64,000 nt of DNA, from the NCBI GenBank assembly GCA_001603275.1, contig LUYM01000014.1, positions 1 to 64,000 of the forward strand, read 5' to 3'. How positions within the stretch are numbered: position 1 is the stretch's first letter; every line of letters starts with the position of its first letter. Below are positions 36,179 to 41,116 of the stretch, piece by piece. Origin of the DNA: Actinomycetales bacterium Actino_02 (lineage in GTDB: Bacteria > Actinomycetota > Actinomycetes > Propionibacteriales > Propionibacteriaceae). The translations under genes and the position numbers were made by a program. Under the pieces are notes generated by a model. It made no database searches, was not told where the DNA came from, and worked only from the letters and a program-made list of their open reading frames with translations.

Positions 36179-37219
<1,041 letters not shown>

Positions 37220-37269: not shown

Positions 37270-37372
37270 GGCTTTCGGGGTCGGCCGCGGTGTTCCCGCT
37301 GGCCGCTCCGGGTCGCACCTGGCTGCTGCTCGGGTGGCTGCTCGGGTGGGCCACCTCGTCCTCACCGTTCGC

Positions 37373-37430
37373 GCTACCGAACGGAACCTTTGCTACCGGT
37401 TTTTCGGCAGCGGGAGTTGCCTTCGGTAGC
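37373..37430. repeat. 58-bp nested palindromic repeat, copy A
   Basis: The element begins GCTACCGAACGGAAC and ends with the near-complement ending CTTCGGTAGC. Inside is a second inverted pair, GCTACCG and CGGCAGC. It aligns without gaps with copy B at 38529-38586, identical at 47 of 58 positions, in the same orientation. The two copies bracket one gene. It could form a cruciform or a double-stem RNA. No target duplication is visible. Confidence 0.75.
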
Positions 37431-37568
37431 GGGAAATGAGGGACGGGCCGCCGACGTGTTTCGTCCGACGGCCGAAGCGCCGTCTCGCGGTGTTGTCCGT
37501 TCGAGTCGCTTGTTGTCCGTTGGTGCGCAGCGGGTTCATCGGTCGGTTGGGGCGGCAATGCTGACGGC

Positions 37569-38472
37569 ATGGAGGTGACGAGGGCGGCTCAGCTGGTTGT
37601 CGGCGGGGCGGATCGCATGGCGCTCACTCGGCAGGTGCGCGCCGGTTCCCTGGTACGGGTCCGGCATGGCGGGTATGCCACTGAACTGGGCGTGGACGCG
37701 ACTGAGCGACACCTGCAGCTCGTGGCGGCCACCTGGCCACTGCTCGGTGAGAATGCGGTGCTCAGTCATGCCAGCGCCGCCGTACTGCACGGCCTCCCGA
37801 CGTGGGAGCAAGACTTGACCAAGGTGATCGTTACCCGGCCGGAGGGCGGACATGGTCGGGCAGGCACGTGCCTTCACGCCCGGCTCGGCACGCTGGAGCC
37901 CGACCAGGTCTGCCAGTTGGATGGCCTGCGAGTCACCAGCCTGGCTCGGACGGCAGTCGACCGGGCCTGCGGTCTCAGCTACGAGAGGGCAGTGGCGACC
38001 CTGGACGCTGCGCTGCGGGCCGGCGTCCAGCACTCCGAACTGGAGCACATCGTGAGGCTCTCCAAACGGCGACACGGCATCGGCATCGCTCGGGCTGCGC
38101 TGGCCTTCGCCGACGGCGCGTCCGAGAGCGTGGGGGAGTCCGTCAGCAGAGTCGTGATCGCCCAAGTTGGACTCCCTGAACCGGCATTGCAGGTCGAGAT
38201 TCGCGATCGACATGGTCGCTGGGTCGCCCGCTCCGACTTTGGTTGGCTCGAGCAGCGGGTAGTCGGTGAGTTCGATGGACGCATCAAGTACCTCGGCGAT
38301 GAGGCATCCGTCGCTGACACCGTGATTCGCGAGAAGGCCCGCGAGCAGGCGATCCGGGACACCGGCTGGGTAGTTCGTCCGCTGGACTTGGGCAGATCTG
38401 TCCAACCCGGGTGCCCTTCGTCGCCGAGTCCAGGCGGCTTTCGACCACGCGCGAGGCCTCACTAAGTCGTGA
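37569..38472 (+). pseudogene. AbiEi-like / DUF559-type (VSR-like nuclease) gene with a C-terminal frameshift
   Basis: The first 65 or so residues resemble the winged-helix N-domain of AbiEi-type proteins (QLVVGGADRMALTRQVRAG). The C-terminal part resembles DUF559/VSR-like PD-(D/E)XK nucleases: GESVSR (Glu190), VARSDFGW (Asp223), VGEFDGRIKYL (Glu234, Lys240) and REKAREQAIRDTGW. The frame then reads 31 unrelated residues to a stop at 38465. One base earlier in phase, the sequence reads WTWADLSNPG...GLTKS to a stop at 38472, the ending expected for this family. A single extra C near 38379-38380 explains this. Either the gene is newly broken or the base is a sequencing error. It stands alone, bracketed by 58-bp palindromes. 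Function is unknown; defence or toxin-antitoxin roles are only suggested by domain resemblance. Confidence 0.6.
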
Positions 38473-38528
38473 CCCGGGCATTGCGTCCGCTCTGACGGGA
38501 ACCCACACGCCGCACCGACGCGCTTCCT

Positions 38529-38586
38529 GCTGCCGAATGGAACCCGTGCTACCGAAATTCCGGTAGCGGGAGTTCCTTTCGGTAGC
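38529..38586. repeat. 58-bp nested palindromic repeat, copy B
   Basis: The element begins GCTGCCGAATGGAAC and ends GTTCCTTTCGGTAGC, which is nearly the reverse complement, with inner arms GCTACCG and CGGTAGC. It is 81 percent identical to copy A, 1,156 bp away, and lies 56 bases after the restored stop of the nuclease-like gene. Confidence 0.75.
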
Positions 38587-38698
38587 GAGCGCGGGGAGCG
38601 GGGTGGCGGGGGCCGCCGGTGGGTGAGCGGGAAGAGAGGGTGAGTACCAGGGAGGTCACTGATTCGCCGCAGTTGTCGAGTCTGGCAAGCTGAGTCTC

Positions 38699-41116
38699 AT
38701 GACGACCCAGGTGGCCCCGGTGGCCGGACTTAGCGGTGCCGAGGTTGCCGAGCGGATCGCCGCCGGCCAGGTGAACACGCTGCCGCCGCGGTCGGGCCGG
38801 ACGACCTGGGACATCATCCGGGCCAATGTCTTCACCAGGATCAACTTCCTGCTGATGGTGCTGTTCGTGATCGTGCTCAGCACCGGCAGCCTGGGCAACG
38901 CGCTGTTCGGCTTCCTGATCATCATCAACTCCGGCATCGGCGCGTTCCAAGAACTGCGTGCCAAGCGCACCCTGGACAACCTGGCCGTCGTGGGGGAGGG
39001 CAAGCCGCTGGTCCGCCGCGACGGCGTGGCCGCCGAACTGCCGCGAGACCAGGTCGTCCTCGACGACATCATCGAGATCGGGCCCGGCGACCAGATCATT
39101 GTCGATGGGATCATGGTCGAGGCGTCCTACCTCGAGGTGGACGAGTCGCTACTCACCGGGGAGTCGGACGCACTGCTCAAGCAGCCCGGTGATGAGGTGA
39201 TGTCGGGCAGCTTCGTGGTGGCCGGTGTCGGTGCCTACCGGGCTACTCGCGTCGGCCTGGATTCCTACGCGGCGAAGCTGGCCGTCGAGGCCAGCAAGTT
39301 CTCGCTGGTCAAGTCGGAGTTGCAGACCGCCATCAATCAGATCCTGCGCCTGGTCACCTGGCTCCTGGTTCCGGTCGGGATCGCCACTGTCTTGGTGCAG
39401 TGGACGCAGAACCCCGGTGCTCCCTGGCAGGAGATCGTGCTGCGAATGTCGGGTGCCCTGGTGCCGATGGTGCCCGAAGGGCTGGTCCTGTTGACCTCGT
39501 TGGCGTTCGCGGTCGGTGTGATCCGGCTCGGCCAGCTGAACGTCCTGGTCCAGGAGTTGCCGGCGATCGAAGGCCTAGCCCGGGTGGACGTCGTCTGCGC
39601 CGACAAGACCGGCACCCTCACCGAGAACGGCCTGCAGTTCAGCCATCTGGAGCCGTCCGACGGTGCGGACGCTGCTCAGGTGGAGCAGGTATTGGCTCAG
39701 CTGGCCGCGGCGGACCCGCGTCCCAACGCGTCGATGCAGGCGCTGACCCGCGCGCTCCCCGCGGAGGATGAGGCCTGGTCGGTGACTGCGATGGCCCCGT
39801 TCACCTCGGCCAAGAAGTGGTCGGGAATGAGCTTCGCCGGCCACGGCAACTGGGTGATCGGCGCGCCCGACGTCCTTGCTGACGCGACCACTGAGATTGC
39901 CCGCCGGGCCGAGGAGGTGGGGCTCGGTGGCCGCCGGGTGCTGCTGCTGGGCGAGTCCGACCTCGCCGTCGACGATCCCGCGGCACCCGGCACCGTCACC
40001 CCGCGAGCGCTGGCGGTGCTGGAACAGAAGGTACGTCCCGAGGCTGCCGGCACCTTGGCCTACTTCGCGGAGCAGGACGTCGCCGTGAAGGTGATCTCCG
40101 GGGACAACGCCAAGTCGGTGGGGGCGGTCACCGGTTCGCTGGGGGTTGCCGCGACCGAAGTGGTGGACGCCCGGGACCTACCGACCGATCCCGAGCAGTT
40201 TGCCGATCGGGTGGAGAGTGCCGGAGTCTTCGGCCGGGTCACTCCGCAGCAGAAGCGGCAGATGGTCGCTGCGCTGCAGTCGCGCGGGCACAACGTGGCC
40301 ATGACCGGCGACGGCGTCAACGACGTGCTGGCCATCAAGGACTCCGACCTCGGCGTGGCGATGGGCTCCGGAGCGGCTGCCACCCGGTCGGTGGCTCAGA
40401 TCGTCCTGCTGAACGACGACTTCGCGACACTGCCGCATGTGGTCGCCGAGGGACGCCGGGTGATCGGCAATATCGAGCGAGTCGCGAACTTCTTCCTGAC
40501 CAAGACCATGTACTCGATCGTGTTGGCCCTACTGGTGGCGGTGGCGCGGCTGCCGTTCCCGTTCGTCCCGATGCACATCTCCTTCATCGGCTGGTACACG
40601 ATCGGCATCCCGGCGGCGATCCTGGCGCTCGCGCCCAACGGTGAGCGGGCCCGTCCCGGCTTCCTGAAGCGGGTGCTGAGCTTCTCGATGCCAGTGGGCC
40701 TGATCATCGGCCTGACCGCGTTCATCAGCTATGTGGTCTCCCGGCAGTCTGTGGTGGACGAGCAGACCGCCACTCAGGCCAGCACAGCCGCCCTGATCGC
40801 AGTGATGATCGCCGGCGGCTGGGCCATGATCGCGATCGCGCGTCCGTATCAGTGGTGGAAGATCGGGATGATCGTCACGATGATCGTCCTGGCAGTCCTC
40901 ACCGTGTTCTGGCTGCCCGGCTGGTACGCCCAGATGTTGCCGGTCTGGCCCTGGCTGGCCACCGCCGATCCGCAGCTGGACCCCAGCAACGTGTCGATGA
41001 ACCTGACCGCCGTGTGGTTCGGCCTGGGCGCGGCAGTGCTGGTCGAGGCGATGTGGTGGATCTCCGGCCGGGTCACCGGCCTCCACCGTCGGGTGTTCGG
41101 CTCGCTGGCCGACTAG
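38699..41116 (+). CDS. ctpE: P-type cation ATPase, CtpE-like (probable calcium transporter)
   Basis: This 805-residue pump has the phosphorylation motif DKTGTLTE (Asp 302), the LTGESD actuator loop, [15 protein letters not shown] hinge, and a membrane motif [11 protein letters not shown] in place of a heavy-metal CPC. The overall sequence, including [10 protein letters not shown] and the [20 protein letters not shown] stretch, is close to what I know of mycobacterial CtpE, a calcium importer. About ten membrane spans are visible. It stands alone between the repeat-flanked gene and leuB. The cation is inferred from family similarity only. Confidence 0.85.

Follow-up and report, generated by a model that had tools for sequence, protein, structure and literature searches.

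The window, that is, the whole 64,000-nucleotide stretch that was analysed, contains a single gene set between two nested palindromes, and these three features form the unit studied here. The flanking genes, which we take to be ilvC and ctpE, carry the names given in an earlier note on this DNA. Palindrome matches are given for R1, a covariance model built from the ten copies of the window's own genome. The features are as follows.

36191–37219, + strand: gene taken to be ilvC, flanking, outside the unit, serving as a synteny marker.
37373–37430, no strand assigned: upstream nested palindrome, with outer GCTACCGAA/TTCGGTAGC and inner GCTACCG/CGGCAGC; R1 match at 37370–37434 (82.4 bits).
37491–37517, + strand: two TGTTGTC repeats in the interval between palindrome and gene, starting at 37491 and 37511, 20 bp apart.
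37569–38465, + strand: gene for a protein with an AbiEi-like part plus a predicted Vsr-like PD-(D/E)XK nuclease.
38529–38586, no strand assigned: downstream nested palindrome; R1 match at 38526–38590 (82.6 bits).
38699–41116, + strand: cation-ATPase-like gene taken to be ctpE, flanking, outside the unit, serving as a synteny marker.

As the earlier note had described, the two 58-bp elements lie in the same orientation and each is a two-level inverted repeat; we found them to be 80% identical over a 64-nt register (37368–37431 and 38524–38587). They enclose one plausible gene, 37569–38465, in agreement with the single gene reported there. No further copy had been seen in the window, and our scans of it for the half-site and the inner palindrome likewise returned only weak matches (11 matches, more than the 3.7 and 4.3 expected). 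When folded as single strands, each copy was more stable than the dinucleotide-shuffle mean on either strand (z −3.0 to −5.7). A search of Rfam gave sub-threshold miRNA matches only, which were taken as chance.

The only Pfam family recovered for the protein was AbiEi_4, with E values of 0.011 for the window copy and 7.8e-6 for the copy in genome G015, and 8 of 22 members matched at 0.01. The gene had been labelled AbiEi/DUF559-like; the first half of this label is supported by AbiEi_4 and by the fold described below, and DUF559 was absent from the Pfam result. Neither the window protein (E up to 10) nor any of the 22 homologues (E up to 0.01) matched Y1_Tnp in Pfam. The residues E190, D223, E234, D236 and K240, of which the last three form E234-x-D236-G-x-x-K240, were invariant in 22 aligned homologues. 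This alignment omits six of the 28 close homologues (L106, L108, L109, L122, L132 and L158); five of the six keep all five residues and L158 is cut short. All five residues were also found at 80 of 80 loci in a scan of named genomes, from which the best 80 of at least 542 relatives were retained and whose search pattern includes E234–K240, with E190 and D223 outside it.

A structure was predicted for the G015 protein, which is 88% identical to that of the window (pLDDT 93.6). Residues 1–182 of the model resembled the AbiEi antitoxin 6y8q_A (Foldseek E 6.3e-5, Z 10.7, rmsd 6.1, 167 aligned), with further fold matches to MenT-type nucleotidyltransferases (Z up to 9.3). Residues 185–296 resembled the catalytic domain of I-Bth0305I, 3r3p (Z 11.6, rmsd 2.9, 96 aligned), and Vsr, 1cw0 (Z 10.1, rmsd 2.7, 105 aligned), with weak Foldseek E values of 0.43 and 1.1, respectively; mitochondrial ribosomal and RAP-type proteins matched the same part (Z up to 8.9). 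A search of the family profile against PDB sequences returned no matches, and the nuclease domain is therefore assigned by its fold, whereas the AbiEi-like part has profile support as well. The protein is thus modelled as an AbiEi-like part joined to a Vsr/I-Bth0305I-like nuclease. In the window copy the last ~26 codons (~38370–38465), past the catalytic residues, lie in another frame than in the relatives, and the G022 copy (L108/L174) has a frame change in its nuclease domain, between residues 224 and 225. Both breaks may be assembly errors or recent losses; for G022, the gene may instead be dispensable.

Homologues of the window protein were detected by tblastn in 22 of the 30 genus genomes, and at the closer ones gene and palindromes occurred together. 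A matched palindrome pair lay at 23 of the 28 genus homologues with at least 41% identity, and the two palindromes of a locus agreed at 46 to 65 of 68 positions. Among the unpaired loci, L158 and L109 lie at contig ends, L106 failed the test yet has R1 matches on both sides, one of them at a contig end, and for L110 and L126 no pair was found. The distant genus homologues (at most 38% identity) were all without a matched pair (36/36, best 30 of 68). Bracketed homologues were also found away from ilvC and ctpE (L101, L106, L120, L121 and L122). The earlier note had raised the question of whether copies cluster around such genes; we found that the elements are dispersed, but in genomes that carry the gene. 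A close homologue (at least 50% identity) is present in 11 genus genomes, all 11 of which have R1 elements, compared with one (G028) of the 19 genomes without such a homologue. G028 (80% complete; L072, L093 and L295) has about 16 elements and the close gene was undetected, through either gene loss or a missing contig. As a separate observation, 13 of 28 distant genus homologues (for example L140, L143 and L147) have a palindrome of at least 20 of 29 located 57–92 bp past the stop codon, against 4 of 108 control windows; this palindrome differs in build, and these genes possibly belong to a sister system.

We found ten element loci in all in the window's own genome, aligning well, and R1 elements in 12 of the 30 genus genomes at an E value of 1e-5. 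Each element-bearing genus genome gave at least 5 to 135 R1 matches with both strands counted, or about 3 to 70 copies, which are lower bounds (150 candidates were scored per genome, and copies were taken as about half of the matches). A plain DNA search recovered elements in 7 of 60 genomes including the window's own, all within one genus. In G015 the palindrome stands in tandem at L270, L272, L274, L281 and L282, with a spacer of ~120 bp duplicated along with it; G000 has one copy at four of these places.

The named relatives, as the best 80 of at least 542, came from Propionibacteriaceae, Geodermatophilaceae, Gordonia, Nocardia, Williamsia, Rhodococcus/Prescottella, Pseudonocardia, Tomitella and others; the genus set already contains 12 of these 80 loci, and 13 of the tested loci belong to the window's group. 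Among these best 80 of at least 542, a matched pair (at least 42 of 68) was present at 50 of 79 testable loci and, outside the window's group, at 39 of 66. None of 852 control window pairs matched (maximum 36 of 68; the windows were drawn from these very loci and contain much coding DNA, and related species are non-independent), and 104 of 6162 cross-locus pairs did. Both palindromes reached at least 20 of 29 at 44 of the 79 loci drawn from the best 80 of at least 542, compared with 0 of 852 controls. The pair test used fixed, narrow windows at 79 of the 80 loci; 29 of the 79, again from the best 80 of at least 542, failed it, and L166, for example, passes with wider windows only. Regular occurrence of the gene in the absence of the repeats, which the earlier note had named as evidence against its idea, held for the distant genus homologues and not for most of the close genus homologues or most of the named loci tested.

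The ends of one locus were alike and those of different loci diverged. Own-pair identity averaged 54.6 of 68 across the 50 matched loci, at least 42 of 68 having been the selection criterion, and between matched loci whose proteins are more than 50% different the palindromes agreed at ~27–28 of 68 (best 80 of at least 542 in both cases). Protein and palindrome distances were correlated (Mantel r 0.56, 0 of 2000 permutations; only the 50 matched loci of the best 80 of at least 542). Such a correlation is expected from common descent alone; more telling is the lasting likeness between the two palindromes of a locus. Solo palindromes were mostly of their own genome's type: 40 of 45 from gene-bearing genomes, a non-random set drawn from the top-scoring matches, were closest to the gene-flanking palindromes of the genome they lie in (sister species excluded).

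The half-site itself varies. In some genomes GCTCCCGAA, GCCACCGAA or GCCCCCGAA replaces GCTACCGAA, mostly at every one of the four half-sites together; G026 is mixed, with outer GCCCCCGAA and inner GCTACCGAA. When the arms of the 50 matched named loci were compared with themselves, 162 of 200 (loci among the best 80 of at least 542) repeated at a lag of 19 or 20, against 6 after shuffling. The sequence of the palindrome is therefore free and its architecture fixed: an outer half-site, about two helical turns, an inner half-site, a loop and the mirror image.

Motif searches in single lineages gave further copies. The query's motif had 16–18 matches in three Gordonia genomes (gene flanks included, both strands counted), 5 weak matches were obtained in a fourth Gordonia, whose motif is different, and G074, G075 and G076, searched for the Gordonia query motif, gave none. 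In Geodermatophilaceae, 6 of 10 genomes had motif matches, in counts that may include gene flanks, and G060 had five motif places besides the query's own, gene flanks possibly among them. Homologues were rare on plasmids (4 of 72,556 records at E 1e-5), and 50,697 phage records gave no match at the same threshold. One plasmid homologue bears the NCBI name 'type IV toxin-antitoxin system AbiEi family antitoxin domain-containing protein'. On a Tsukamurella plasmid (L347) the homologue has a direct stretch common to both sides, at ~1597 and ~2734; the palindromes there are weak (18 and 17 of 29).

A second conserved feature lies upstream of the gene. The sequence TTRTCCACA, which resembles the DnaA-box consensus, occurred exactly within 150 bp before the start at 29 of 79 named loci, compared with 0 of 1834 control windows, and with one mismatch at 50 of 79, compared with 20 of 1834 (loci from the best 80 of at least 542; controls from the same loci, with much coding DNA and non-independent related species). 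With one mismatch allowed, it was present at 48 of 66 loci outside the window's group and at 2 of 13 inside it, again among the best 80 of at least 542. In the distant clade of the genus the exact sequence was found at 15 of 28 loci and the one-mismatch form at 26 of 28, against 0 and 4 of 322 controls. In the matched loci that were inspected for this, the site lies between the palindrome and the start codon. The window's clade has TGTTGTC, a motif also present at other genus loci, in place of the DnaA-box-like site, which precedes the gene in other genera. DnaA-box-like sites were strongly enriched upstream of the homologues in L175–L241.

The reading that we favour, with about even confidence, is that gene and palindromes form one genetic system, REPtron-like with a different enzyme. 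The earlier note had offered a mobile or selfish unit, a REP-like repeat recognised or mobilised by the protein, or a recombination scar; co-occurrence supports this set of ideas, and mobilisation by the protein is what we infer. Under our reading, recognition of the palindrome by the protein is strongly implied, probably through its AbiEi-like DNA-binding part, which would read a half-site that is present four times at 19–20 bp spacing. The modelled Vsr/I-Bth0305I-like domain may nick or cut the palindrome, perhaps as a hairpin in single-stranded DNA during replication. Repair or recombination would then copy palindromes onto one another and so keep the copies alike, and at times palindromes could be copied into new intergenic sites, so that the nuclease would disseminate them. 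Recombination between the two ends would delete the gene and leave a solo palindrome. More speculatively, the DnaA-box-like upstream sites might tie expression to replication.

Unit and solo palindrome alternate at one site. Twenty-five genus genomes have ilvC. In nine of them the unit is located between ilvC and ctpE, separated from ilvC by extra DNA in the case of G002. A solo palindrome adjoins ilvC in G008, where ctpE follows, and in G012, where another gene is next. Six genomes (G001, G004, G011, G020, G021 and G023) have a short ilvC gap that was judged by reading to be without such a palindrome, and the remaining 8 of the 25 ilvC sites hold other genes or content that is not assignable. 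The comparison for empty sites between ilvC and ctpE, which the earlier note had proposed, was informative: at the position of palindrome, gene and palindrome in G007, the related G008 carries a single palindrome. The two differ by the gene plus one palindrome, 1092 bp, and their flanks can be aligned on both sides as far as the palindromes, poorly so over the final ~45 bp on the left. These alleles fit either a deletion between direct repeats or a gain at a solo palindrome.

The latter possibility is the core of the main rival, a homing-like process in which the nuclease cuts the solo palindrome of a gene-free allele and repair inserts the gene plus one palindrome, the spread of the gene being the selfish step. 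The G008 and G007 alleles have the form that it predicts, and the best fold match of the catalytic domain is a homing endonuclease, I-Bth0305I. However, deletion between the repeats yields the same pattern, a filled allele with two palindromes would leave the site unprotected, and genomes hold many elements yet at most 7 homologue matches each, distant ones included. We consider this rival unlikely.

Evidence on the age of the spread points both ways in different genomes. The unit lies at ilvC in nine genomes and is therefore mostly inherited in place. A G012 gene located elsewhere groups as sister (100/99) to the gene that G018 carries at ilvC, and the G012 ilvC site keeps a solo palindrome; furthermore, the genes at ilvC do not form one clade on the tree, in which the L108 row is out of frame past residue 224. 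The unit has therefore moved or been rearranged at times. For 7 of 8 solos of G000 an element stands at the same place in G015, so that movement appears slow and the spread mostly old. At two sites with an element in G015 only, which could be located in G000, the element was absent and the intergenic DNA was too diverged or replaced for a junction to be read. The nine solos of G022 are near-perfect palindromes (26–29 of 29) and 59–66 of 68 alike in differing flanks, and spread in that genome therefore looks recent. No repeat longer than 5 nt, and nothing convincing as a target-site duplication, was found at these nine solos. The youngest-looking solos thus coexist with the frame-broken gene of G022.

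A second rival treats the palindromes as operators: binding by the AbiEi-like part would serve regulation alone, that of the protein's own gene and, where solos stand, that of other genes. Inverted repeats in the promoter are bound by AbiEi proteins, one palindrome lies mostly 100–230 bp upstream of the gene, and the C-terminal frame breaks in two copies spare the AbiEi-like part. Against this, the gene is also followed by a second, matching palindrome, and the half-site sequence turns over between lineages while the nuclease residues are invariant. The position of the solos is also poorly suited to operators: of 48 solo loci, a non-random set drawn from the top-scoring matches and judged with a rough gene caller, 21 lie between convergent and 6 between divergent genes, the others being tandem (16), unclear (1) or inside a called frame (4). 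Regulation as the sole function seems to us somewhat less probable again than homing.

Two further explanations appear improbable, to about the same degree. In the first, the palindromes owe their spread to a different transposase, for instance a RAYT, with the nuclease gene carried along as a passenger. Y1_Tnp is indeed present in 14 of the 30 genus genomes including the window's, in 9 of 12 with elements and 5 of 18 without; the nuclease gene follows the elements more closely (11 of 12 and 0 of 18), and G027, G026 and G019 carry elements with no Y1_Tnp match. The sole Y1 gene examined is flanked by a different repeat. It lies in the window's own genome (L340, C29:18277–18606) and is RAYT-like, with a Y1_Tnp match; GGGACGGTTCC repeats stand on both sides of it, at locus positions ~951, 995 and 1039 and ~1996 and 2039. 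It appears to be a genuine REPtron within this genome, and its repeat bears no relation to the palindromes of the unit. In the second, the gene is flanked by chance, either by ordinary terminators acting in both directions or by structural DNA sites under host selection. The hairpins are stable and the 21 of 48 solos between convergent genes are in keeping with terminators, but these would not follow the presence of one gene family, and neither the locus-specific likeness of both ends nor the change between loci is expected of them. Least probable of all is that the gene is a lone AbiE-type gene for defence or of a toxin-antitoxin system, its palindromes being unimportant. In favour of this are the PADLOC AbiEi models that match the protein (best E 1.5e-15) and its AbiEi fold. 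Against it are the nuclease domain, the palindrome link, which it leaves unexplained, and the lack of an AbiEii partner beside the window gene, whose neighbours are ilvC and the cation ATPase.

Returning to the reading of one genetic system, a wider form of it, which we hold slightly less firmly, is that the unit represents an undescribed class of selfish palindromes in Actinobacteria, in which an AbiEi–Vsr nuclease, preceded in many lineages by a DnaA-box-like site, recognises, spreads and homogenises a nested four-half-site palindrome as an HUH-free parallel to RAYT–REP that arose independently. The recognition code would change with the protein, and each lineage would therefore have a private palindrome. 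A literature search, extending to few subscription journals or preprints, returned no description of such a nuclease–palindrome system; as its coverage is partial, an earlier description may exist. If the wider reading is true, the gene-plus-palindrome strategy has evolved more than once, here on an unrelated nuclease, genes presently labelled as AbiEi antitoxins gain a role, and dozens of naturally diversified protein–DNA pairs become available for reading a recognition code. The ends of a locus are alike yet lineage-specific, which makes concerted evolution of repeats with a nuclease directly testable.

Several known systems share parts of this arrangement. Integron attC sites are imperfect nested palindromes flanking single genes, and the unit is like them in having imperfect nested palindromes around a single gene; the RYYYAAC...GTTRRRY outer pair of attC was found in 0 of 100 palindromes tested, and this identity was rejected. 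AbiE type IV toxin-antitoxin systems share with the unit the N-terminal ~180 residues, AbiEi-like by fold (6y8q) and by profile, whereas the window gene stands without an adjoining AbiEii and carries an extra nuclease domain. The catalytic fold and the conserved acidic residues are like those of I-Bth0305I, an EDxHD/Vsr-like homing endonuclease. Unlike I-Bth0305I, the protein has an AbiEi-like DNA-binding part, its gene lies between duplicated intergenic palindromes and solos are abundant; if the palindrome is the target, the full allele also differs from that of a homing endonuclease in keeping two palindromes, against one in the gene-free allele, with the target uninterrupted. The closest parallel is with RAYT–REP, in which, according to two reports, a nuclease gene is bordered by palindromes that occur genome-wide and are cognate to the gene (PMC8266576, PMC3733652). 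As in a REPtron, the gene is flanked by cognate palindromes with more copies genome-wide. The enzyme differs, being AbiEi-like plus Vsr-like PD-(D/E)XK by prediction where that of the REPtron is a Y1 HUH transposase. The repeat differs as well: in place of a REP there is a 58-bp nested four-half-site element with changeable sequence and a constant 19–20 bp repeat, and, by reading rather than by counting, the palindromes share neither GTAG nor another common tetranucleotide. With no Y1 transposase in it, the unit is therefore not a member of the RAYT–REP family, though it would work alike.
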